Shown: positions 23,723-47,996 of the stretch, piece after piece
How positions within the stretch are numbered: position 1 is the stretch's first letter
Layout: each line of letters begins with the position of its first letter
Assembly (NCBI GenBank): GCA_001044335.1
Contig: CP011001.1
Location: forward strand, 992,001 to 1,056,000
Reading direction: 5' to 3'
DNA from: Methylophilales bacterium MBRSF5
GTDB lineage: Bacteria > Pseudomonadota > Gammaproteobacteria > Burkholderiales > Methylophilaceae
DNA length: 64,000 nucleotides
Notes under the pieces: generated by a model
Databases searched by the model: none
What the model was told of the DNA's origin: nothing
The model's input: only the letters and a program-made list of their open reading frames with translations
Program-made: the position numbers and the translations under genes

Positions 23723-24463
23723 ATGAATAGATTTTACCATCCAGACAGTATTTCAGCACATAGCGAAATCAATCTATCTGACGATGCCTCAAAACACCTG
23801 GTTAAGTCATTGCGATTAAAGCCATCAGACAGGATCATATTATTTAATGGTGATGGATATGATTATCATGGAGAGGTATCTGACATTGATAAAAAAAACG
23901 TCAAGATTGCTGTTAATGAAAAAAAACTCAACACTAGTGAAGCAGATATTGATATTAGCATCCTGCAATCAGTAACCTCTCGAGATAAACTTGACTTTAT
24001 TTTTCAAAAAAATACAGAACTAGGAATAAAAAATTTCTATTTAATTAATACCGAAAGGGTAAACTTTAAAATTCCTCAAAGCAAAACAGCAAATAGAATT
24101 GAGCATCTGAAAAAAGTCATTATCTCTGCATGCGAGCAGAGCGGACGGTCAAAAATACCAACTGTTCATGAAATAATTCTTAGCTTAAATAAGTTAACAA
24201 ATGAAGATGATCATTCATGTAAGTTAATTTTGAACCCCTACACAGATTACTCACTATCAAATTTAAGAAATAATGATTTAAAAAGTAAAAAAAGTTTTCA
24301 GATTTTAATTGGACCAGAAGGGGGCTTTTCAGAAGCTGAAATCAAAGTTGCAGAAAATGCTGGGTTCAAATCACTATCTTTAGGGAAAAGAGTATTGCGA
24401 ACTGAGACCGCCTCCTTATCAATTGCAAGTGCGATATTAGCCTTAACCAATAATTTTGTATAA
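23723..24463 (+). CDS. rsmE: 16S rRNA (uracil(1498)-N3)-methyltransferase
   Basis: 246 residues. N-terminal PUA-like domain starts MNRFYHPDSI...HLVKSLRLKPSDRIILFNGDG, and the SPOUT knot domain has LIGPEGGFSEAEIKVAENAGF and SLGKRVLRTETA, the SAM-binding signatures of RsmE. It methylates U1498 of 16S rRNA. It ends 50 bases before argA and is divergent from the thioredoxin-fold gene. Confidence 0.95.
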   Translation: MNRFYHPDSISAHSEINLSDDASKHLVKSLRLKPSDRIILFNGDGYDYHGEVSDIDKKNVKIAVNEKKLNTSEADIDISILQSVTSRDKLDFIFQKNTELGIKNFYLINTERVNFKIPQSKTANRIEHLKKVIISACEQSGRSKIPTVHEIILSLNKLTNEDDHSCKLILNPYTDYSLSNLRNNDLKSKKSFQILIGPEGGFSEAEIKVAENAGFKSLSLGKRVLRTETASLSIASAILALTNNFV

Positions 24464-24477
24464 ATTACATATATTTA

Positions 24478-24515
24478 TATAAAAATAAATATAAATATTG
24501 TAAAATTTACAATAT
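24478..24515 (+). promoter_or_regulatory. argA promoter region with 21-bp palindrome over the start codon
   Basis: Positions 24495-24515 form a perfect inverted repeat: arm ATATTGTAAA, one central A, arm TTTACAATAT. The last two bases are the first two of the argA ATG (24514). A -10-like TATAAA lies at 24478-24483, 16 bases after TTGTAT at 24456, and a second at 24490. No Shine-Dalgarno sequence is present. Because the gene product has its own XRE helix-turn-helix domain, the palindrome is a natural autoregulatory operator; this is an inference from position and symmetry. Confidence 0.65.
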
Positions 24516-26016
24516 GAATCTTAAACAACTTAGAACTGATAGAAAGTTAACTATTGCCAACCTCAGTCAAATCCTTGATTTAGATCCTGGCAATCTTTCG
24601 AAAATAGAACAAGGAAAACTGAAACCTTCCTTGCCTGTTCTAATGAAATATTCAAATTACTTCAAAGTCTCCATTGATAATTTAGTGGGACAATCAAGTG
24701 TCGACTTCATATCAGCCTTTAGATCGGCTGCACCATATATTCATCATTATAGAAATAAGATTTTCGTTATTGCATTTGACGGTTTTGCCCTTGAGAGTAT
24801 CTCTTTTGTTAATTTATGTACGGACATTAATCTACTTCATTCCTTAGGGATTAAAATCATCCTAATTCATGGCATCAGGCCTTTTATCGACTTAAGATTG
24901 GATAAAAATAATATTAAATCAAGATTTCATAAGCATCAAAGAATCACAACAGCAGAGATGATGCCTCATATTATTGAAGCTAATGGGTTGGTTAAGACAA
25001 AAATTGAGGCAGCTTTATCTTCCAACATTTACCACAATAATATTTTTAAAAGTGAGTTGAAAATTTCATCTGGCAATTTTCTTATGGCTAAACCTAGAGG
25101 AGTTATTGATGGAGTTGATATGGAACAGACGGGAGTTATTAGGGAGATTAATCATGAGGCAATCATTGAAAAACTTAACCACAATGAAATCGTGATCATG
25201 TCCCCAATTGGATACTCTCCTATTGGGGAAATCTTTAATTTATCCTTTGAATCATCGGCAAGCAAGATTGCTTCTTCCATTAAGGCTGAAAAATTAATTT
25301 ATATCACTGAAAATAATGGGGTACAAAATATCAGAGGTGAATTTATATCTGAAATGACGAGCATCAAATTGAACAATTTGATATCCCATATCAAAGAATC
25401 AGAGCATCCAGAATTTATAGAAAAAAATACACTACCAATATTGGAGGGTGCGGCTCAAGGTTTAAGAGAGGGCTTAGCAAAGATTCATTTAGTCAATAGG
25501 CACATTAATGGTTCATTAATTATGGAATTATTCACTAACCAGGGACAAGGGACTGTCATTACAACAGAAAAAATAGAAAAATTTAGATCTGCCGACATAC
25601 AAGACGCCAAAGTGATTGAAAAAATGATTAATCCTCTAATAAAGACTCAAATCATTGCAGATAGGAGTCTTGAAAAGATAGAGATGGAAATACAACATTT
25701 CCACATTTTAGAATTTGATAATAAGATACTTGGGTGTGCGCAAGTTAAACATTATGATGGAATTTCTGAAATTGCCTGTTTTGCAATAAATGAAAATTAC
25801 CAAAACATGGGTTATGGGAAAAAACTTTTAGAATATTGTGAAAATGAGTGTAAAAAAGTGAATAACAAGACATTTATTATGACAACTCAATCCAGCCACT
25901 GGTTTATGGAAAATGATTTTAAACAAGGCAACATTAATGATTTGCCAGATGAGAAAAAAAGGGAATACTCCCTACAACGAAATTCAAAAATATTTTTAAA
26001 GGAATTGGAGCAATAA
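24514..26016 (+). CDS. argA: N-acetylglutamate synthase with N-terminal XRE helix-turn-helix domain
   Basis: 500 residues in three parts. Residues 3-58 are a clear XRE/Cro-type DNA-binding domain ([43 protein letters not shown]). Residues about 66-350 are the amino-acid-kinase-like, arginine-sensing domain of ArgA ([48 protein letters not shown]). Residues about 355-495 are the GNAT acetyltransferase with the acetyl-CoA loop QNMGYG (430-435) and [11 protein letters not shown]. coli ArgA has about 443 residues and no HTH; here the extra 60 residues are the fusion. It makes N-acetylglutamate, the first step of arginine synthesis. argB follows with a TAATG overlap. Confidence 0.93.
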
Positions 26017-26882
26017 TGGCACCCAACGACAAAGCAAAAATACTTAGTGAAGCATTACCTTACATAAAGCAATTTTTTGATAAAACCATTGTGATTAAGT
26101 TTGGTGGCAATGCAATGATAGATGAGCAACTAAAGAGCTCTTTTGCTATGGATGTAGTGTTATTGAAATTAGTGGGAATGAATCCAGTTGTTGTACATGG
26201 AGGTGGTCCACAGATCAATGAACACCTAGAGAAAATCGGCAAGAAGGGTGAATTTATTAACGGGGTCAGAGTGACTGATGAAGAGACCATGGATGTTGTG
26301 GAAATGATTTTAGGAGGTCAAATAAATAAAGAAATTGTTCATCAAATAAATATTCATGGTGGAAAAGCAGTAGGCCTTACCGGGCAAGATGGAAACTTCA
26401 TTCATGCTTCAAAGCTTGATAAAGATAAAGATGGGAAAAAAATAGACCTTGGTTATGTGGGTAAAATTGAGTCCATCGATCCCAGCCTCATCGATTTTCT
26501 AGATACTGGTGACTTTATTCCTGTAATCGCTCCAATTGGAATTGGTTCAGATGGAAAAACATACAACATCAATGCAGATGTTGTTGCAGGCAAGTTAGCT
26601 GAAGTTCTCATGGCAGAAAAATTAATCCTTATGACTAACACCAAAGGTGTTCTTGATAACCAAAATCACCTGATTACAGGAATTAAGCCAAATGATATTG
26701 AAACATTGATTAAAGATGGCACATTAAGTGGTGGCATGTTGCCTAAAATAGAATCGGCTATGGATGCCGCAAAAGGCGGAGTCAATAGTGTACATATTAT
26801 TGACGGCAGAGTTGAGCATGCATTGTTATTAGAAATTTTAACCAATCAAGGTGTAGGTACATTAATCAAAGGAAAAAACTAA
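26016..26882 (+). CDS. argB: Acetylglutamate kinase
   Basis: 288 residues. Amino-acid-kinase motifs are [12 protein letters not shown] (about 26-37), [17 protein letters not shown] (about 59-75) and [18 protein letters not shown] near the C-terminus. Phosphorylates N-acetylglutamate in arginine synthesis. It is translationally coupled to the HTH-argA gene (TAATG), so the two sequential pathway enzymes share one transcript. Confidence 0.97.
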
Positions 26883-26887
26883 AACTA

Positions 26888-27502
26888 CTGTGGGCATTTG
26901 ATCTTGATGACACGCTTCATCATGCCAGTCCACATATTTTTGAGTTTATCAATAGAGATATGACTCAATACATATCTGAAAATTTAAGTATTTCGCATGA
27001 AAAGGCGAATTGTTTAAGAATCGACTATTGGAAGAAGTATGGTTCAACATTGAGAGGATTAATGATCCATCATCAAATTGATCCCCATGATTTCTTACTT
27101 AAGACGCACAACTTAAAAGACATTGAAGAGAAAATAGAGCCTGTAAAAAATTTAAAGATGGTTTTAAAAAGTATTAATGACGATAAAATTATCCTCACAA
27201 ACGCACCAACACATTATGCAAAATTCATTTTAAAAAAATTGGATATACATTATTTCTTCAAACAGATTATTTGTATTGAAGATAATTCATTCATACCTAA
27301 ACCCGATATTCGTATTTTTAGAAAAATTAAACGAATGCCTTATCAAAAAATTATACTGATTGACGATTCACATGAGAATTTAAAAAGCGCCTACCATGTA
27401 GGACTGGAAACAGTTCATATTTCAAATGAAAGAATAAATAAAAACTATGCAAGTAAAAAGCTACATGGGCTTGGTGAATTACTCAAATTGAAAAGATTCT
27501 AA
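26888..27502 (+). CDS. HAD-family pyrimidine 5'-nucleotidase, probable CTG start
   Basis: The first ATG in frame (26960) would delete the essential HAD motif I, since FDLDDTLHH is encoded just upstream. The frame opened further back contains no ATG, GTG or TTG near there; CTG at 26888, 5 bases after the argB stop, gives MWAFDLDDTLHH and 204 residues, matching family length; ATT at 26861 is another option. Motif II (ILTNAPTHY), the motif III lysine (FIPKPDIRIF) and motif IV (ILIDDSHENLKSA) are present. The SDT1/YjjG-like group dephosphorylates pyrimidine nucleotides. Position after argB is common in betaproteobacteria. Confidence 0.75.
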   Translation: MWAFDLDDTLHHASPHIFEFINRDMTQYISENLSISHEKANCLRIDYWKKYGSTLRGLMIHHQIDPHDFLLKTHNLKDIEEKIEPVKNLKMVLKSINDDKIILTNAPTHYAKFILKKLDIHYFFKQIICIEDNSFIPKPDIRIFRKIKRMPYQKIILIDDSHENLKSAYHVGLETVHISNERINKNYASKKLHGLGELLKLKRF

Positions 27503-28576
27503 AAAATTAAGTCTCTGTTTATTGATATGTTCTGCAATGTCTTTCCCAGTTTGATTTGAAGGAATACTTATTGGTTTATTTTTGAAAAAATTTTCTAACT
27601 TATCGTGATAAGTCAATAAAGATATATTTAAGTCGTTTTGATCAATTAATAAATCTAATCTTATTAACTCCAATATTTTATCTAACTTATCGTCTTTACC
27701 AAAAAAACCGACTCTATTTAAAACAAACAATTGATCCACCGAGGAAAGATTTCTAAAATTAAGAAGATCTTTAATTAATTCTTTAAAAGTCTTGATTATA
27801 TCGAGATCCTTTTTTGAAAAATTAACTGAATACTGTTTGCAGAATTTAAAGTTGAATTTCTCTTGAAAGAAAAGCCAGCACAGATTAAAGTTCTTAAAAT
27901 AACGACCATGTTTGAAAAAGGATTGAAAACACTCTGATAATTTTCTTTTGTTATTGTTTTCAAAAATTTGATCAATAGCGCCAATATCTTCCAATGTCTT
28001 AAAAAAAATATATCCTTCTTTAAGTTGAAAGACTTTTTTAATCTCAATGATGATTCGATCATAGCTCAAATACTTCAATTCTCCCTCATTAATCATGGTT
28101 TTTAATAATGCCAAGGTCTCTTCTGCAATTTTAAAATCTGGTAATTTTGCTTTAAACCTCGCAAGTCGCAATATTCTTAAAGGATCTTCCTTGAATGCAT
28201 CTGAAACATGACGGAGTATTTTTTTACTAATGTCATTAATACCATTGAATGGATCAATGTATTTATTCTGATCATCTTTTGCTATTGCATTGATTGTTAA
28301 GTCTCTTCGGACCAAATCTTCTTCTAACGAAATAGTTGGGCTGGTATAAAAAATAAAATCTTTATATCCAAATCCATTCTTTTTTTCTGTCCTAGCTAAT
28401 GCATATTCCTCGTGAGTATCAGGATGTAAAAAAACGGGGAAACTTTTACCAACAGGTTTAAATTTTTTCTCAATCATCTCCTCCGGAGTTGACCCAACCA
28501 CAACGTAATCTTTTTCCGTATAAGGCTGATTTAATATTTCGTCACGAACTGCCCCGCCTACTAAATAAATTTTCAT
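27479..28576 (-). CDS. cca: CCA-adding tRNA nucleotidyltransferase, HD domain degenerate
   Basis: 365 residues. The nucleotidyltransferase head is intact: YLVGGAVRDEILNQPYTEKDYVVVG with the acidic pair in the EKDYVVVG strand, then RRDLTINAIAKD and RILRLARFKAKL. Related E. coli-type enzymes have about 410 residues with a C-terminal HD phosphohydrolase domain; here the corresponding region (around HGRYFKNFNLCWLF) has no HD doublet and is shorter. It is likely a pure CCA-adding enzyme. It overlaps the convergent nucleotidase by 24 bases and the upstream NDUFA9-like gene by 4. Confidence 0.88.
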   Translation of the reverse strand: MKIYLVGGAVRDEILNQPYTEKDYVVVGSTPEEMIEKKFKPVGKSFPVFLHPDTHEEYALARTEKKNGFGYKDFIFYTSPTISLEEDLVRRDLTINAIAKDDQNKYIDPFNGINDISKKILRHVSDAFKEDPLRILRLARFKAKLPDFKIAEETLALLKTMINEGELKYLSYDRIIIEIKKVFQLKEGYIFFKTLEDIGAIDQIFENNNKRKLSECFQSFFKHGRYFKNFNLCWLFFQEKFNFKFCKQYSVNFSKKDLDIIKTFKELIKDLLNFRNLSSVDQLFVLNRVGFFGKDDKLDKILELIRLDLLIDQNDLNISLLTYHDKLENFFKNKPISIPSNQTGKDIAEHINKQRLNFLESFQFE

Positions 28577-47707: not shown

Positions 47708-47719
47708 AATAAAGTCAAT

Positions 47720-47996
47720 AAGTTAGCCTATAAGCCGGGTTCTGTATTTGTGCAGTCATTCATCTTGAATAATGATTACTCATTATCTCTAGCGGCCTAC
47801 CCGATGACAGTACGAGCCATACTATCGTCATCCTATTTGGCCTTGCTCCTGGTGGAGGTTACCGCGTTTCACCGTAACTAAATACGCTCGTCTCTGTGGC
47901 CCTATTCCTCATTTCACAATGGTTGGCTGTTAGCCAACACCATGCTCTTTGGAGCCCGGACTTTCCTCTATAAATAGCGACTGCCCGGCTAACTCG
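47720..47996 (-). ncRNA. rnpB: RNase P RNA, compact form
   Basis: About 277 bases. Universal segments are readable on the minus strand: GAGGAAAGTCCGGGCT (CR I), GGAGCAAGGCCAAATAGG, CGGGTAGGCCGCT, AGATGAATGACTGC, and ACAGAACCCGGCTTATAGG (CR V). The end pairs GTTAGCC/GGCTAAC form P1. It is clearly shorter than the roughly 377-base E. coli RNA; the stretch between CAGTCGC and GAGGAAAG is only TATTTATA, so P3 is nearly absent, and the P12 region is short. It processes tRNA 5' ends. Confidence 0.93.

Follow-up and report, generated by a model that had tools for sequence, protein, structure and literature searches.

The window, a 64,000-nucleotide stretch taken from the single-contig, 1.35-Mb genome of Methylophilales bacterium MBRSF5, encodes an N-acetylglutamate synthase (NAGS, ArgA) preceded in the same frame by a helix-turn-helix (HTH) domain. 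The features of the locus, in window coordinates, are as follows.

24455..24471, unstranded: distal predicted operator TTTGTATAAATTACATA, overlapping the end of rsmE and the -35-like TTGTAT
24456-24461: -35-like TTGTAT, overlapped by the distal predicted operator
24478..24483, + strand: -10-like TATAAA, 16 bp after TTGTAT; weak in AT-rich DNA and without a chance control
24497..24513, unstranded: proximal predicted operator ATTGTAAAATTTACAAT, the centre of a perfect 10+1+10 inverted repeat
24514..26016, + strand: XRE-ArgA fusion gene, N-acetylglutamate synthase with N-terminal HTH, 500 aa (ORF with ATG start; Pfam, NCBIfam and relatives)
24520..24678, + strand: XRE/Cro HTH domain, residues 3-55 (Pfam HTH_3, E 9.3e-9)
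24583-24615, + strand: HTH recognition helix, about residues 24-34 (column conservation; AlphaFold helices)
24757..25497, + strand: amino-acid-kinase-like regulatory domain, residues 82-328 (Pfam PF00696, AA_kinase, 3.7e-20)
25291-25293, + strand: K260, partner of the arginine-binding loop (alignment to N. gonorrhoeae NAGS)
25525..25554, + strand: arginine-binding loop, residues 338-347 (alignment to N. gonorrhoeae NAGS; motif from PMC4490483)
25687..25887, + strand: GNAT acetyltransferase domain, Pfam core, residues 392-458 (Acetyltransf_1, 2.5e-10)
26016..26882, + strand: argB, N-acetylglutamate kinase, whose ATG shares one base with the argA stop codon

The one-base overlap suggests that argA and argB are probably co-transcribed. 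Elsewhere in the window, a HAD protein of 180 aa is encoded at 26960-27502 (+); it resembles pyrimidine 5'-nucleotidase (TIGR01993), which it matches below cut-off over model positions 26-181 of 183. It is perhaps N-terminally shortened, and its end overlaps a convergent gene at 27479-28576. The RNase P RNA (bacterial class A) lies at 47715-47996 (-), with a score of 237.9 bits.

The fusion and its distribution

The first-pass annotation described a single uninterrupted 500-residue frame joining an XRE HTH to ArgA, a description borne out by the ORF, by Pfam and NCBIfam, and by family loci (51/51 and 59/60). All three domains, HTH_3, AA_kinase and Acetyltransf_1, exceed their curated Pfam cut-offs, with HTH_3 at 35.6 bits against a cut-off of 23. 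Residues 61-498 correspond to the NCBIfam amino-acid N-acetyltransferase equivalog PRK05279 (E 5.1e-142, 473.8 bits, cut-off 344), and the protein also matches TIGR01890 (409.2 bits, cut-off 202.85). The classical ArgA layout, an AAK domain followed by a GNAT domain, is present above the family cut-off, and the HTH consists of about 60 additional N-terminal residues ahead of it. The closest named relatives are found in LSUCC-series isolates of Methylophilaceae and in beta proteobacterium KB13, where identity is 98% over the protein. Separation of the HTH from argA in close relatives was looked for and is not the case: the match covers residues 1-500 in six of seven close-relative loci, and the seventh is interrupted by a contig end.

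Among 150 genomes searched from Methylophilaceae, a family of methanol users, 146 contained a match to ArgA. We examined a first set of 51 family loci, comprising the window, 6 relatives, 24 further close matches and 20 genus representatives, and in all 51 the HTH shares the ArgA frame. A second set of 60 was picked against the fusion claim, since it was drawn from unexamined full-length family matches with an alignment start beyond residue 16, together with 13 others. The HTH is present in 59 of these, and the exception (L234) has unresolved bases at that position, an assembly gap. Searches of the order and class returned ArgA in 236/250 and 249/370 genomes, respectively. In most matches listed outside the family the alignment starts close to residue 60, and most have a frame of 440-480 aa; some start at residues 27-50 or belong to longer frames. 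The family HTH profile was then applied to 70 fetched non-family ArgA loci, 30 from the order and class searches and 40 selected from the matches listed for a start at residues 27-50 or a long frame, and none was fused (0/70). Because this count covers fetched loci among the matches listed, a rare independent HTH-ArgA fusion may exist outside the family. When a maximum-likelihood tree was built from the ArgA part with the HTH left out, all 51 fused rows grouped together as a single clade (97/100, one change), which points to a single origin of the fusion near the base of Methylophilaceae.

Constraint on the HTH is evident from substitution patterns. Its dN/dS was 0.04-0.38 in eight of nine pairs, the ninth giving no usable dS. 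Across the 51 fused proteins, mean column conservation reached 0.86 in the recognition-helix region (residues 24-34, consensus D-x-GNLSRIERG), compared with 0.60 for residues 1-58 and 0.66 for the ArgA part, making this the best-kept HTH stretch among those tested. An AlphaFold model built with seven sequences gave a fairly confident five-helix HTH (residues 2-9, 14-21, 25-32, 40-50 and 54-58; block pLDDT 60-91 over residues 1-60), with a poor model outside it (mean pLDDT 45). A chance open frame or annotation accident is ruled out by the family-wide frame and by purifying selection on the HTH. Unfused ArgA may also be made from a separate internal start: at least one ATG, GTG or TTG lies between the HTH and ArgA in 43 of the 51 fused members. 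The other 8 have none, so an internal start cannot be general.

The enzyme part appears complete. The alignment of residues 64-498 spans almost all of gonococcal NAGS (2r8v_A, E 1.6e-69), for which residue roles and the arginine-loop motif were taken from PMC4490483. The equivalents of gonococcal R316, E353, S392, R425 and S427 are R384, E419, T457, R489 and S491, and those of the arginine-site residues K201 and E270 are K260 and E338. The proposed general base (the E353 equivalent) is kept in 51/51 fused proteins, as are the substrate residues equivalent to R316 and R425, and the S427 equivalent is kept in 50/51. The proposed general acid Ser is replaced by Thr in all 51 and likewise in 18/21 unfused relatives. 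At the regulatory site, the Lys and Glu are kept in 51/51, and the arginine loop E-(L/I)-(F/M)-(T/S)-X-X-G-X-G-T is present in the window protein and in 49/51; the two exceptions, L018 and L019, read ELYTDxGSGT. Judged from these alignments, the fusion is a complete ArgA with its catalytic and arginine-binding residues intact.

Paired inverted repeats before argA

A symmetrical 17-bp motif, TTTGC-N7-GCAAA with an A/T-rich centre of 7, was learnt from 36 family upstreams; it drifts to TTTGT/ACAAA in AT-rich genomes. Most family argA promoters carry two copies, one distal (near -60 from the ATG) and one proximal (near -30). In most genus representatives the gap between the proximal site and the ATG is about 10-18 bp, and in the window's group the site touches the ATG. 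In the window it takes the form ATTGT-N7-ACAAT, abutting the ATG, and the perfect 10+1+10 inverted repeat around it (24495-24515) touches the argA start codon. The 15-bp core of this repeat has one perfect occurrence in the genome; a search for TTGTAAANTTTACAA allowing 2 mismatches returned background (45 vs 43).

The motif is recovered well beyond its training data. In leave-one-out tests with near relatives removed from training, 34 of the 36 upstreams had a top site matched by at most 15/300 Markov shuffles, L018 and L024 failing. Among 59 held-out family upstreams, the top single site was matched by at most 5/100 shuffles in 54; the five without a significant site include L234, whose start was not placeable. 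Two of 30 unfused controls from other families passed the same single-site test. A site pair above 20 bits occurred in 45/59 held-out upstreams, and in all 45 the start-to-start spacing was 28-32 bp, from an allowed range of 26-55 bp. Unfused controls are far richer in GC (medians 0.50 and 0.55 vs 0.24 for fused upstreams), so that a valid comparison can be made through shuffle tests only and not through raw bit scores; the pair test was therefore repeated against shuffles of each upstream itself. By this measure 57/59 fused upstreams passed, 56 with a spacing of 28-32 and one of 40, the failures being L234 (start not placed) and L273. The unfused controls passed in 0/30 and 6/40 cases (6/70), at scattered spacings of 31, 39, 43 and 53. 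Species of the same genus are not independent in these upstream counts; among the genus representatives, 18/20 had a pair above 20 bits at a spacing of 29-31 (L038, L040-L052, L054-L057). The spacing is 41-42 in the window's close group and mostly 50-52 in other small-genome (streamlined) lineages, values suggestive of roughly whole extra helical turns.

These conserved paired inverted repeats, identified by sequence footprinting, are the predicted operators of the fusion protein, XRE/Cro regulators being expected to bind inverted-repeat operators. Their occurrence with fused argA is supported by the comparison above and fits the expectation for an autoregulator. The added unfused controls strengthen the operator-pair case and leave the arginine question unaffected. 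With respect to the promoter, a -35-like TTGC/TTGT hexamer coincides with the distal left half-site, and a -10 match follows in 32/36 promoters, a count without a chance control and weak in AT-rich DNA. Given that the distal half-site lies on the -35-like hexamer, usually with a -10-like element after it, bound protein would cover the promoter.

Several loci deviate in the recognition helix. In L018 and L019 (genomes G147 and G092) it reads NISSLCRIE/NTSSLSRIE, with the Asn replaced and the HTH frame retained, and the L018 promoter has no recognizable operator. In L233, L235, L236, L270, L271, L273 and L274, Ser replaces the recognition-helix Gly (DASN/DTSN), and their argA upstreams carry lower-scoring sites in which the left half TTTGCA is kept and the right half is altered. 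Both sets of cases fit protein-operator co-evolution, each possibly representing a single event. L020 and L023, which combine the Ser variant with a good distal site, are a poor fit to simple co-evolution.

Reach of the predicted switch and its signal

Other arginine genes were scanned with the same motif. No sites were found in argC upstreams (0/21 at ≤10/200 Markov shuffles), argF upstreams (0/17), argD upstreams (0/16) or argG upstreams (0/17; for two of these, L302 and L314, the scoring was done at a neighbouring gene). Four of 29 argB upstreams passed at ≤5/100 simple shuffles (L170, L178, L185, L186), and only the L185 site (genome G016) scores like argA sites. The argB start lies within 200 bp after argA in 14 of the 29. 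This strong operator-like site in G016 (L185/L142), TTTGCGTATTTTACATT at 14.4 bits, lies about 28-45 bp before an argB that does not adjoin argA and is perhaps a second target in this genome alone; however, a -10-like TAAAAT overlaps it, and it is absent from most other argB loci. In most family members examined (L283-L299; argD by eye), argD, argF and argG lie near each other and away from argA-argB.

Across 11 genomes, the single-site pattern gave 67 matches vs 35 for its reversed control. Eight are argA sites, 41 of 62 examined single-site matches fall inside genes, and the excess beyond argA, mostly within genes, weighs against the operator reading. The recurrent neighbours are argA (argB being linked via ArgA similarity) and the dnaA-rpmH stretch, where the pattern occurs in L105, L131 and L159 (gene names recognized by eye); these copies are probably origin-related repeats and not ArgA sites. 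Since no sites were found at argC, argD, argF or argG in the loci scanned, the system has the look of a switch for argA(-argB) rather than of a repressor for the pathway, with a predicted regulon of argA plus argB where operonic.

The narrow reach bears on ArgR, which the first-pass annotation thought the fusion might replace. ArgR was not found in the window's genome at E 0.001, and its Pfam family (PF01316) is not among the fusion protein's own Pfam matches. The same family scored over cut-off in 0/150 Methylophilaceae genomes and in 0/150 order genomes, most of the latter outside the family, with partial sub-threshold matches in two genomes of each set; the positive control was over cut-off in 8/14 control genomes. 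In PMC5343134, ArgR is likewise described as conserved in many gammaproteobacterial groups and absent in other classes. The lack of ArgR is thus wider than the fusion, and with no sites at argC, argD, argF or argG (16-21 loci each), replacement of ArgR as a pathway-wide regulator is not upheld.

The fusion, its single origin, the conservation of its residues, and the operator pair with its association with fused argA are established at the level of sequence, and from them we infer DNA binding, repression and arginine as the signal. We consider it likely that Methylophilaceae ArgA is an autogenously regulated trigger enzyme that catalyses the first step of arginine synthesis and also represses transcription from its own promoter, with arginine most likely as signal. 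This agrees in part with the first-pass proposal of enzyme and repressor in one protein: the fusion, the intact residues and a fusion-specific promoter repeat pair speak for it, and the repressor half is read from site position.

Structural precedent suggests how such a switch could work. According to PMC4490483, the N-terminal helices of neighbouring subunits of gonococcal NAGS interlace across a two-fold axis of the hexamer, and arginine moves this helix and reshapes the hexamer; E. coli NAGS is described as a hexamer with arginine and as mixed oligomers without it (PMC5146650). The HTH is placed just ahead of the helix equivalent to the arginine-moved one. HTHs paired by the ArgA oligomer would bind the two 17-bp inverted repeats flanking the argA promoter: each inverted repeat would accommodate one two-fold HTH pair, and a hexamer, with three such pairs, would suit two operators lying side by side. 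Occupancy of the distal site over the -35-like hexamer and of the proximal site over the start region would shut off argA, and argB with it where the two are operonic, as in the window. Arginine on the kinase-like domain would move the N-terminal helix that tethers the HTH, inhibiting the enzyme and favouring DNA binding. Because the HTH adjoins the arginine-moved helix and two-fold HTH pairs fit inverted repeats, arginine is the probable co-repressor of argA. A more specific version is put forward tentatively, at a little under an even chance: one arginine site would control both activity and transcription, the HTH pairs of the hexameric ring gripping two operators on one DNA face and a single conformational change, brought about by arginine, ending catalysis and starting repression, family-wide and without ArgR.

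The signal is where a competing explanation has most to offer. The HTH could autoregulate argA independently of arginine, with binding set by the amount of free enzyme (ArgA homeostasis) or by substrates such as glutamate or acetyl-CoA. Across the 51 fused proteins, the linker joining the HTH to ArgA (window columns 56 to 65) ranges in length from 9 to 54 residues, which argues against rigid mechanical coupling, so allosteric coupling need not be strong and simple concentration-dependent autorepression remains if the linker tells against tight coupling; single-target autoregulation by itself would also account for the narrow predicted regulon. We nonetheless regard arginine-free control as unlikely, given that the HTH directly precedes the helix shifted by arginine in gonococcal NAGS (PMC4490483) and that the arginine-site Lys and Glu are invariant (51/51). 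The sign of regulation is inferred from site position: the fusion protein could act as an activator at the same predicted sites, and some activators do bind where the distal site lies, but this site sits on a -35-like hexamer and the proximal one near or touching the ATG, as is typical of steric repression, and feedback logic speaks for repressing the first committed step, making activation highly improbable. That the repeats serve another regulator or are mere promoter elements, the HTH being a passenger or oligomerization part, is scarcely credible: the distal left half-site does coincide with a -35-like TTGC/TTGT hexamer, but both half-sites and both sites recur at nearly fixed spacing (57/59 fused vs 6/70 unfused, the latter scattered), and the recognition helix is the best-kept HTH stretch tested in a domain under purifying selection.

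Comparison with known systems

The trigger-enzyme reading places ArgA beside enzymes with a second role in transcription, among them NadR, which has an XRE-type HTH. The fusion is predicted to resemble NadR, BirA, PutA, PepA and PyrH as a metabolic enzyme that also controls transcription. These five are the E. coli trigger enzymes named in PMC8249747, and none of them is an N-acetylglutamate synthase. Classical hexameric NAGS (N. gonorrhoeae; E. coli ArgA) is alike in its near-full alignment and in its catalytic and arginine-binding residues; no DNA-binding domain is described for it, whereas the fusion adds the N-terminal XRE HTH. The first-pass annotation knew of no described example, and we likewise found no NAGS with an HTH in the open-licence PMC literature, judged by titles and the starts of abstracts. 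Enzyme-repressors as such are already known (PutA, BirA, NadR; PMC8249747), and the NAGS version with an HTH appears, as far as that literature goes, to be new.

ArgR/AhrC, a hexameric arginine-linked regulator of arg genes (PMC7248756), is an unrelated protein that would share with the fusion the proposed arginine-linked control of arg genes. ArgR has many arg genes under its control (PMC5343134), whereas the fusion is predicted to control only argA(-argB). If true, the proposal would show how a single protein can govern the first step of arginine synthesis in bacteria lacking ArgR, and would suggest how streamlined ocean methylotrophs retain feedback control of gene expression. A parallel in scope is PutA, which in gSELEX binds only the putA-putP spacer and is a single-target autoregulator (PMC8249747). 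The signal for PutA is the substrate of a degradative pathway; for the ArgA fusion it would be the end product of a biosynthetic one, and the short list of trigger enzymes would, if this holds, gain an end-product-sensing biosynthetic enzyme.
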